From positions 1 to 35,284 of IMG/VR virus record IMGVR_UViG_3300037116_000046: a DNA stretch of 35,284 bases. One strand, written 5' to 3'. Origin of the DNA: a virus. This document shows positions 11,721 through 14,611 of the stretch, piece after piece. Within the stretch, counting starts at the first letter, position 1. Every line of letters starts with the position of its first letter. Made by a program: the position numbers and the translations under genes. Under the pieces are notes generated by a model. It was not told where the DNA came from. It worked only from the letters and a program-made list of their open reading frames with translations, and did not search any database.

Positions 11721-12073
11721 AAGCGATATTAAAACCACTCAAAAGAAGATACTACGGCACCATTGTTGAAATAGTTGACGGTCCTTATGCTGGTCACGAA
11801 ATAACAGTGTGGATTTCAGTTGGTGATTGCGACCTACAACCCAGCAAGAGGGAGCTTGATTTTGCTGGTATAACTCAGGATCAATGGAACACCAATCCTC
11901 AAGTCGGAACTTGGCCGATGGAGACGCCAGATTATTGTGACGGAAAACCCGGTCAGGCGTTAATGGCGCGAGATCAATTAGGCATTTGCGACACTCATTT
12001 TGAGGGCAGAATTGCTTACGAAGCGGCCCTTGGACTGATTGAAGTGTTGAAAGGAATAAAGTCAGAACCATGA
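11717..12073 (+). CDS. Hypothetical protein, 118 aa
   Basis: Short gene between two glycosyltransferase-like genes, ATGA-linked to both. The N-terminus is basic and beta-rich (RYYGTIVEIVDGPYAGHEITVW), with a KOW-like turn. The rest is acidic and aromatic with QWNTNPQVGTWPMETP. No family is recognised; it may be an accessory factor. Confidence 0.55.
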   Translation: MKAILKPLKRRYYGTIVEIVDGPYAGHEITVWISVGDCDLQPSKRELDFAGITQDQWNTNPQVGTWPMETPDYCDGKPGQALMARDQLGICDTHFEGRIAYEAALGLIEVLKGIKSEP

Positions 12074-13032
12074 ACACCGTCCTATTCGTAAATCACAGTC
12101 AAGAAAACTGCGGGGTTCACAGCTACGGCAAGCGCGTCGCGCAAATCTTCAAAGGGTCGAGAAAATGGAATGTGGTTTATGCGGAACCGGGAAGCCCCTC
12201 CGTTTTAGCAATGTTGGTGATGGCTCTCAAGCCAGCGTTTGTCATTTACAATTATCTAGCTCAGACAATGGCGTGGTTGGATCATCCGACAATTAGGCTG
12301 TTGAGAAATGAAGGTGTCAAACAAGGTTTGATCGTTCACAACATCGGACAAGCGGAGATTTTTGATTTTTACCTGCATCAGAATCCTGGCCATCCGCAGG
12401 ACGCGACGAACTTCCCGTTGTTCAGGCCGCTGTTTGATTATAAGAAAAAATGGGGCAGTCCAGATACTCCAGATGCGTACAAGGTGCCCGAAAAACAACC
12501 GCCTCTCTGTATTGGCACATTCGGATTCGCTCTCCCGGAGAAAAACTACCCTGAAATTTGCAGGCTGGTGAACGATCAATTTGACGAGGCGGAAATCAGG
12601 ATGCACCTGACGGCGGCGCACTTCAGGCCCGATCAGGGGTGGCTGGAACAAATCAAGGCCGATTGCGACAAGGCTATTACCAAGCCCGGCATGAGGCTCT
12701 ACATCACAACCGACTTCCGAGACGATGAGGCGATTTTGGACTTTCTGGACGGGAACGATTTAAACGTGTTCCTGTACCAATATTTCCCGCATTACAACGG
12801 ACTGAGTTCTGTGATTGATTACGCGCTGTCGGTTCGGAAACCAATTGCGGTTTGCAAGAGTGGGTTGTTCTCGCACATCAACAACGCGGTGCCGTCGATT
12901 TGCGTTGAGGACAGGCCGTTGCCGGAAATAATGCAGGGCGGATTCGAGCCGGTGAGAGGGTTTGCTGAGGAATGGAGCCATCCGAATTTCATCCGGCATC
13001 TGGAAGGAGTGTTGGATTCGTTGACAACGTGA
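12070..13032 (+). CDS. GT-B type glycosyltransferase, 320 aa
   Basis: Two Rossmann-like halves are visible. The N-terminal one (TVLFVNHSQENCGVHSYGKR, residues 3-22) has the acceptor-side G-V-H-S-Y pattern of GT4-type enzymes. The C-terminal one starts near residue 148 (IGTFGFALPEKNYPEI), with a donor-binding block NVFLYQYFPHYNGLSSVID near 232-250 and the expected A-L-S-x-x-K-P-I-A. Length is at the short end for GT4. It likely transfers a sugar from a nucleotide donor to a host surface glycan or a phage component. ATGA-coupled upstream; the next gene is the interrupted HNH gene. Confidence 0.7.
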   Translation: MNTVLFVNHSQENCGVHSYGKRVAQIFKGSRKWNVVYAEPGSPSVLAMLVMALKPAFVIYNYLAQTMAWLDHPTIRLLRNEGVKQGLIVHNIGQAEIFDFYLHQNPGHPQDATNFPLFRPLFDYKKKWGSPDTPDAYKVPEKQPPLCIGTFGFALPEKNYPEICRLVNDQFDEAEIRMHLTAAHFRPDQGWLEQIKADCDKAITKPGMRLYITTDFRDDEAILDFLDGNDLNVFLYQYFPHYNGLSSVIDYALSVRKPIAVCKSGLFSHINNAVPSICVEDRPLPEIMQGGFEPVRGFAEEWSHPNFIRHLEGVLDSLTT

Positions 13033-13134
13033 GTACGGTGTCGGATGCACTCACGGTGTCGAAATTCGAAATGTGATGATTACAAGTATTACGGAGCGCG
13101 TGGAATCACTGTCTGCGAAAGGTGGTTCAATTTT

Positions 13135-13156
13135 GGGTAGTGGGCTACTTTGAAAA
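13135..13156 (+). repeat. Left terminal inverted repeat
   Basis: GGGTAGTGGG then C, then TACTTTGAAAA. It pairs with the right TIR with one mismatch, and the start codon of the methyltransferase begins at its last base. Confidence 0.85.
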
Positions 13157-13689
13157 TGAAATTTGAGCGAAAATGGGCTATGCCAAGTCGAGACACATTC
13201 TCCATTAATCCGATTGGAGAATTTGTTAAGCGTTACATGACAAACAGCAGGGTAAGCGTTGATCCTTTCGCCCGAAACTGCAATTGGGCACGGTTTACCA
13301 ACGACCTGAACGCTGAAACATTGGCGCAAAGCCACTTAGACGCAGAAATATTTCTGCGCGATTTAAAGTTTGCGGACGGGCAAGGGATTGTTGACCTTTT
13401 ACTTTTCGACCCTCCTTATTCACCGCGTCAAATCAGCGAATGCTACAAATCCGTTGGGCAGGAAGTAGGAATTAAAGGAACCCAAAATGCCGCGCTCTAT
13501 AAACGTTGCCGCGATGCGGCAATTCCGATCCTGGCTGAGAATGCGGTTGTCCTAACTTTTGGATGGAACAGCACCGGGATGGGTAAAAAACGTGGGTTTG
13601 AAATTATCGAAATTCTTCTTGTTTGTCACGGTGCCGGGCACAACGACACGATTTGTTTAGCCGAGAGAAAGTGTGCCACTTTGCCATGA
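13156..13689 (+). CDS. Lone N6-adenine-type DNA methyltransferase, 177 aa
   Basis: Residues 85-88 are DPPY, the catalytic motif IV of amino-methyltransferases, in the context LLLFDPPYSPRQI. A likely SAM-binding motif I lies at 36-41 (DPFARN), followed by TNDLN. The C-terminal part has VVLTFGWNSTGMG. The protein is small (about 177 aa) and lacks a separate target recognition domain, so its sequence specificity cannot be seen. It has no restriction partner. It starts inside the left TIR and is the sole gene of the element; a TTG 6 bases earlier is an alternative start. Function could be protecting the element or altering gene expression; the site it modifies is unknown. Confidence 0.75.
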   Translation: MKFERKWAMPSRDTFSINPIGEFVKRYMTNSRVSVDPFARNCNWARFTNDLNAETLAQSHLDAEIFLRDLKFADGQGIVDLLLFDPPYSPRQISECYKSVGQEVGIKGTQNAALYKRCRDAAIPILAENAVVLTFGWNSTGMGKKRGFEIIEILLVCHGAGHNDTICLAERKCATLP

Positions 13690-13731
13690 ACGGACTTAGC
13701 CGCGCAATCCCTCCGTTCGGTAGTGGGCTAA
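13688..13731 (+). other. Structured non-coding segment after the methyltransferase, with internal TIR copy
   Basis: GAACGGA (13688-13694) pairs with TCCGTTC (13712-13718), and TTAGCC (13696-13701) pairs with GGCTAA (13726-13731), giving a pseudoknot-like arrangement. The segment GGTAGTGGGCTA at 13719-13730 repeats 12 bases of the TIR. It could be a protein-binding subterminal repeat or an RNA structure. Confidence 0.5.
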
Positions 13732-13819
13732 TGCCAGCGCGTTGCTGTCGGCTGGTCTGTGTTTGCGTTTTTGCATGGTTCCAGTTTCACGCGGTCAAAT
13801 CTTTTTTTTTGCCAATGAT

Positions 13820-13841
13820 TTTTCAAAGTAACCCACTACCC
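13820..13841 (-). repeat. Right terminal inverted repeat
   Basis: Reverse complement reads GGGTAGTGGGTTACTTTGAA and onward, matching the left TIR over 22 bases with one mismatch. It is directly followed by AATTTT. Confidence 0.85.
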
Positions 13842-14002
13842 AATTTTGAATTGTTCGTGCAGGACATGATGCCGACATTTAGGCTGGGACTTACTTTGGA
13901 TAGAAAAGAAAACAGCGGTAATTACGAACCGGGAAATTGCCGGTGGATTACTCAGGCAGAGCAGATTAAAAATCAGCGACCTTGGGGAAGCGTTACGAGA
14001 AT

Positions 14003-14611
14003 ATGACTTTCATCGTTCTAATGTGTTTTTCTAGGATACGCCATACAGCTCTCCTAAAGGAGAATTTTCAATATGCTCTGAGGGAATTTACTGGTACGAT
14101 TCGGTTGATTCCTGTGTGTGACAAAATAGATCAGGTGCTTTGTTGGGCTGATTGCAGTTTTGCACAGCCGATTTTGTGTATTAACAAGAGAGGATGGTTT
14201 CAAGGTCACTCTCTTTTGAACGCTGCTCTTGACCAATTATTTCCAGTTGAGAATCCCATGCAGACGTGGTGTTCGACTTGGACTGATGATGACGCCTACG
14301 AGCCGAGATTCTTTCAGGACTTGGCAGAGCGGATTCAGAAGGCAAATAACCCTCAAGTGGCAGTCGTGTCGATGCGGCGTTGGATGCACCGATCAACTCC
14401 GGTCGATCATCTGGCCGCGACTCCCGCGCACATGCGAGTTTGCTCGGTCGGGTTGGAGCAGATTTACGTCCGGGCCGACATCGCGCAGCATTACCGGTAC
14501 GGAAACAGCGGGATTGCGGACGGGTTCATGGTGGAGCAGCTTTACCGCGAGTGCGGGAAAGGGTTTGCTTTCTTTCCAGAACTGGTCACTAATTGGAATC
14601 GTTTCGTATGA
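14003..14611 (+). CDS. Glycosyltransferase-like protein (GT-A), 202 aa
   Basis: ATG 14003 overlaps the stop of the split HNH gene (ATGA). A D-D-D motif at residues 95-97, in the context TWCSTWTDDDAYEPRFFQDLAERI, is the metal/nucleotide-binding DxD expected in GT-A enzymes. It is followed by VAVVSMRRW and CSVGLEQIYVRADIAQHYR. The N-terminal strand-turn pattern (FIVLMCFSRIRH) is typical of the Rossmann-like half. Part of the glycan cassette. Donor and acceptor unknown. Confidence 0.65.
   Translation: MTFIVLMCFSRIRHTALLKENFQYALREFTGTIRLIPVCDKIDQVLCWADCSFAQPILCINKRGWFQGHSLLNAALDQLFPVENPMQTWCSTWTDDDAYEPRFFQDLAERIQKANNPQVAVVSMRRWMHRSTPVDHLAATPAHMRVCSVGLEQIYVRADIAQHYRYGNSGIADGFMVEQLYRECGKGFAFFPELVTNWNRFV

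Follow-up and report, generated by a model that had tools for sequence, protein, structure and literature searches.

The locus analyzed here raises the question of what kind of DNA splits a small HNH-like phage gene, and by what means it was moved there. The window, i.e., the whole stretch of DNA that was analyzed, corresponds to an IMG/VR virus record with a length of 35,284 bp, the gene content of which, outside this locus, could mostly not be assigned. Our answer, which we consider highly probable, is a mobile insertion cassette, that is, a non-autonomous transposon that carries a passenger gene between IS1-like ends and that was moved in trans and inserted into the HNH-like gene. The limits of this 705-bp element (13136–13840, plus strand), which runs GGTAGTGGGCTACTTTGAAAA...TTTTCAAAGTAACCCACTACC, were set by comparison with the family sharing its ends. 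The terminal inverted repeats are approximately 21 bp long and differ from each other in one base: the left repeat, GGTAGTGGGCTACTTTGAAAA, occupies 13136–13156 on the plus strand, and the right repeat, at 13820–13840, reads GGTAGTGGGTTACTTTGAAAA on the minus strand. The target site duplication, CAATTTTG, is present on the left (13128–13135) and on the right (13841–13848). An earlier, sequence-only reading had given the repeat as AATTTT, which is a genuine inner core; the full duplication, however, is 8 bp rather than 6 bp long, a correction that leaves the joined gene unchanged. With the flanks included, the inverted pair is 31 nt long and 90% complementary (13126–13156 against 13820–13850), and the DNA fold of the element shows no more than the pairing of the inverted ends. 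The 31-nt pair, together with paired ends in dozens of contigs and the 8-bp duplications, argues that the ends are not a product of chance.

Excision of either 13135–13847 or 13136–13848 yields the same sequence, an open 82-codon ORF (13045–14006) that reads ...RWFNF/ELFVQD... at the junction (marked by the slash); the locus sequence without the element is ...TTCAATTTTGAATTG... across this point. The exact in-frame split of an 82-codon gene with the W-F-N-F-E-L-F-V-Q-D pattern, as originally described, was thus recovered. The 5' part of the HNH-like ORF (codons 1–30; 13045–13140, plus strand) enters the terminal repeat and ends at TAG 13138–13140, and the 3' part (13849–14006, plus strand) has no start codon of its own. 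The ATGA coupling of the right half to the next ORF, also noticed before, is present at 14003–14006 as an overlap of the joined ORF with the downstream ORF. The joined protein matches phrog_3377 (HNH endonuclease; 4.7e-32, residues 1–75) and gave no match in the Pfam search; 1,025 records of annotated phages contain homologues. All of the 80 best viral-contig homologues span the junction, most of them ungapped at this point and a few carrying a single additional residue, in agreement with the claim that both halves are still conserved. The search with the joined protein that had been suggested as a check therefore returned homologues that are full across the junction, but none at the same gene position without the insert. 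No same-locus empty site or excised allele was found among viral_contigs; the uninterrupted allele is unseen at this locus because neither neighboring protein (12070–13029 and 13982–14608) has relatives in viral_contigs. The split had also been called reversible, a term that is unsupported and should be dropped because nothing here shows precise loss. Such loss is possible in principle, and precise excision does not follow from an insertion of the IS1 type.

The mobility of the insert, which the sequence-only reading had asserted, is substantiated by a second phage, in which this cassette lies at a site unrelated to that in the window. The copy in IMGVR_UViG_3300002301_000107 (L002/L022) is 95.5% identical to that of the window over 555 bp; the identity starts exactly at element base 1 and stops just past the gene, and the flanks are dissimilar. 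This sharing of a cassette between unrelated sites is, at the level of sequence, the strongest evidence for the presumed transfer by transposition. It should be noted that the L002 copy is not flanked by an exact target duplication, 5 of the 8 bases being identical, and that the right ends of the two cassettes differ. In the window element, an internal remnant of the terminal repeat (GGTAGTGGGCTA, 13719–13730, plus strand) forms a partial internal end within the right ~150 bp (13690–13840), and comparison of these ~150 bp with other loci gave no match except for the terminal repeat. Because of the remnant and the unmatched stretch, the right end may have been taken from another mini-element. 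A search of annotated phages with the element DNA gave no match.

The same ends define a family. Scanning viral contigs for the end GGTAGTGGGYTACTTTG gave matches in 62 stretches, and scanning bacterial contigs for GGTAGTGGGCTACTTTGA gave at least 118 stretches, which, among the matches listed, were mostly in Acidobacteriota and Verrucomicrobiota MAGs. When ends were paired at distances of up to 8 kb, 80 pairs were obtained. An exact 8-bp duplication flanks 42 of these pairs, among which one locus is counted in duplicate, and any other exact flanking repeat of at least 3 bp was found in only two of the 80 pairs. The frequency of the exact 8-bp duplication indicates a transposon family that makes 8-bp target duplications; in phages, these targets are AT-rich. 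Between the ends, we detected a PAPS-reductase-like passenger (phrog_424; L033, L037, L184), a C5-cytosine methyltransferase (phrog_363; L034), an N-methyltransferase fragment (phrog_67; L191), a radical SAM protein (phrog_9298; L191), a phrog_12600 passenger (L171), and ORFs without assignment (L196, L020). The methyltransferases of the phage cassettes are of three types, and some elements with the same ends hold no passenger. Terminase genes near the cassettes of L034 and L171, and replication helicases in L033 and L002, indicate that the cassette-bearing records are phages.

The only long ORF of the window element (13150–13689, plus strand) encodes a phage-type adenine methyltransferase that matches phrog_11619 over nearly its full length (3.3e-33), the adenine specificity being taken from the annotation of its relatives. 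Its ATG, at 13156, is element base 21, and an in-frame TTG at 13150, within the terminal repeat, is an alternative start. In the methyltransferase alignment (n = 13), DPPYSPRQ and FGWNS are conserved, and the DPPY motif is intact. No Pfam model matches this protein, and the search of solved structures returned a single weak match (2fhp, E = 0.007). More distant relatives (L003–L017) are found without these ends; therefore, the methyltransferase family extends beyond the form found in cassettes. In the closest end-less relative, L003 (2970–3010), TTTTGTGAAATG precedes the start codon and resembles the end at its inner edge (CTTTGAAAATG); this likeness could possibly represent microhomology for capture, or chance.

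No transposase gene was found within the element or anywhere in the window record, which may be incomplete. Some sister elements, i.e., elements that share these ends, code for a DDE transposase of approximately 280 aa, both in viral (L035, L043, L044, L174, L188) and in bacterial sequences (L052, L106, and others). The sister-element transposase matches Pfam DDE_Tnp_IS1 above the gathering score, and its best NCBIfam match is IS1, at 52.9 and 53.5 bits compared to an equivalog cut-off of 100, which is why we use the name IS1-like. Relatives of this transposase on Acidiphilium, Mesorhizobium, and Hoeflea plasmids are annotated as IS1 family transposases; these plasmid elements have GGTAGTG... 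ends, 8-bp duplications, and adjoining regulator or RES/Xre genes. IS1 itself makes target duplications of 8 or 9 bp, and a cat gene placed between IS1 ends was reported to be able to transpose (PMC12428005).

Other explanations of the insert have to be weighed against these data. One of them is that the element moves on its own, with either the methyltransferase itself or a cryptic ORF as the mobility factor, as in ultra-small phage elements without a recognized transposase. The methyltransferase is indeed the sole long ORF, is conserved, and was found twice between the same ends; however, these ends also hold many unrelated passengers or none, a DDE transposase is encoded in the sister copies, and most relatives of the methyltransferase occur without the ends, which makes self-mobility very unlikely. 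An insert of the intron or intein kind, which would be spliced out at the RNA or protein level and leave the HNH gene working, is more improbable still, even though the two HNH halves join exactly in frame and such inserts are common in phage genes. An intein is ruled out by the immediate TAG in the host frame, terminal repeats with an 8-bp duplication at dozens of unrelated sites are the marks of a transposon, and nothing would be shifted out if both duplications were kept. We give just as little credence to an assembly artefact, in which two metagenome sequences were joined: the record is metagenomic, but the ends are exact, both junctions carry the identical 8-bp duplication, and the same cassette is present in another sample, with homology from base 1. 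The self-mobile methyltransferase, the intron or intein, and the assembly chimera were all rejected, on account of the varied passengers, the TAG, and the exact junctions.

A separate issue is what the insertion cost. Nearly all homologues of the HNH-like protein possess an N-terminal stretch, ...TPxYxxW..., that is missing from the ORF in the window, the frame of which is closed upstream by a TGA at 13030. Because the homologues continue upstream with this stretch and the frame is closed, the gene is likely to be 5'-short; judging from these sequence features, it was probably shortened before, and independently of, the insertion, and the activity of its product is doubtful. It is thus quite conceivable, although with less than even probability, that the ORF was already a truncated relic, such that the insertion hit non-functional DNA and no gene was lost. 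Conversely, no stop interrupts the 82 codons, the match to relatives extends to residue 74–82, and at least one relative (L203) likewise has only a short frame upstream. The relic reading is compatible with the insertion-cassette explanation and lowers only the claimed cost. The view of the HNH gene as itself selfish was not confirmed: PHROGs assigns it to HNH endonucleases, Pfam gives nothing, and the usual N-terminus is absent.

The ends of the element bear on expression of the passenger, for which we found no convincing ribosome-binding site in the element and no promoter or terminator signal exceeding that of shuffled sequence. In the phage cassettes, the passenger ATG is element base 19 or 21 (...CTACTTTGAATG or ...CTACTTTGAAAATG). 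An ATG at base 19 or 21 that opens at least 90 codons was found at 12 of 83 distinct viral ends. Random positions in these contigs, at 0.00288 per position, would give an expected 0.48, an excess that is somewhat flattered because the two positions were picked after seeing the cassettes and 3 of the 12 passengers are interrelated. At bacterial ends, the numbers were 2 of 133 and 0.86 expected. Translation arriving from upstream meets a stop within the end in two of the three frames (TAG at bases 3–5, TGA at bases 16–18), these stops lie close to the passenger ATG, and most phage cassettes have the same direction as the neighboring genes. With less confidence, we infer from this arrangement that the passenger would be expressed by read-in, possibly via termination-reinitiation.

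Under the insertion-cassette explanation, an IS1-family transposase would be supplied in trans, from a sister element resident either in the host or in a different phage. It would recognize GGTAGTGGGCTACTTTG at both ends and move the cassette into a new target of 8 bp, after which the passenger would be expressed by read-in from the operon entered. In the window phage, the cost would be the HNH-like reading frame ended by the insertion, and the likely gain would be a methyltransferase able to protect phage DNA or to alter regulation.

Mobile insertion cassettes (MICs) and transporter ISs (PMC3129680) share with the window element a passenger between IS-type inverted ends, the absence of a transposase inside, and, presumably, the capacity to be moved by the transposase of a related intact IS. 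The intact IS with the same ends and a cognate transposase by which MICs are recognized is present in other records, although not in that of the window, and complete sister elements with extra passengers exist in this family as well. The window family differs from MICs in its IS1-like ends, phage residence, phage accessory passengers, and the start codon abutting the end. With the IS1 family, it shares the IS1-type DDE transposase of the sister elements, GGT... ends, and the 8-bp duplication; conversely, the sister elements have a single ORF of ~280 aa instead of the IS1 insA/insB frameshift, and the window element does not encode a transposase. The phage elements that come nearest in behavior are MPME1 and MPME2 of mycobacteriophages (PMC3029335), which are also very small, have inverted ends, and split phage genes. 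According to their description, however, they are 439 bp long, with an extra unexplained 6 bp at one end, between the left end and the target (PMC3029335), whereas the window element has an 8-bp duplication and a methyltransferase instead. The Tn3-derived miniatures TIME and TIME-COMP (PMC4133298, PMC13367494) are likewise non-autonomous, mobilize genes between their ends, and have mosaic ends, but these ends are of Tn3 type, and the context is plasmid or resistance, not phage. In the papers searched, we found no description of phage-resident IS1-like cassettes with exchangeable accessory genes and an edge start codon; the ends may be in ISfinder.

The usual explanation for the gain of single accessory genes by phages at scattered sites is recombination, either illegitimate or relaxed homologous. 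Phage-type genes enclosed by precise transposon ends point to a specific, testable route of acquisition, and the same ends with varied phage accessory genes look like a way for single genes to hop between phage genomes. The sequence-only reading recognized the precise insertion and the mobility, but missed the main content of the locus, i.e., the methyltransferase cassette, the IS1-like ends, and the missing transposase. More broadly, we tentatively propose that phages share transposition-based single-gene cassettes, in which IS1-like ends double as a translation entry, so that unrelated accessory genes could be picked up, moved in trans, and expressed on landing. If true, this single-gene cassette system would parallel integron cassettes, with transposons in the place of integrons, and would give phages a concrete way of acquiring morons. 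The ATG-at-edge design predicts the mode of expression of a promoterless passenger after landing, and further cassettes of this kind can be sought simply by the sequence of the end. Members are frequent enough, both in environmental phages and in genomes of Acidobacteriota and Verrucomicrobiota, for the family to be studied.

The family also extends to both larger and smaller members. The larger ones, mostly bacterial (L043:1673-4851, L084:829-2556, L077:1427-3743, L155:2515-4718, L111:2389-5921, and L280:767-3400), have SocA/Panacea antitoxin-like, Fic, NYN, ClpP-like, and RES/Xre genes enclosed by their ends. At the other extreme are bare end-to-end palindromes of 32–38 bp in six bacterial MAG loci (L054:5781-5817, L067:4469-4506, L069:3299-3330, L075:2868-2904, L105:2123-2157, and L144:1652-1689), each consisting of two terminal repeats only, with an exact 8-bp duplication; these are either the smallest transposed units of the family or scars after interior deletion. 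Several small copies in the L020, L028, L039, and L192 records keep 20–33 residues of the transposase N-terminus and, for this reason, appear to derive from complete elements via internal deletion. Two phage records, IMGVR_UViG_3300047576_000022 (L020) and IMGVR_UViG_3300037150_000037 (L039, L191), hold 11 and 7 end copies, respectively, and several of these copies are mini-elements with remnants of the transposase start.
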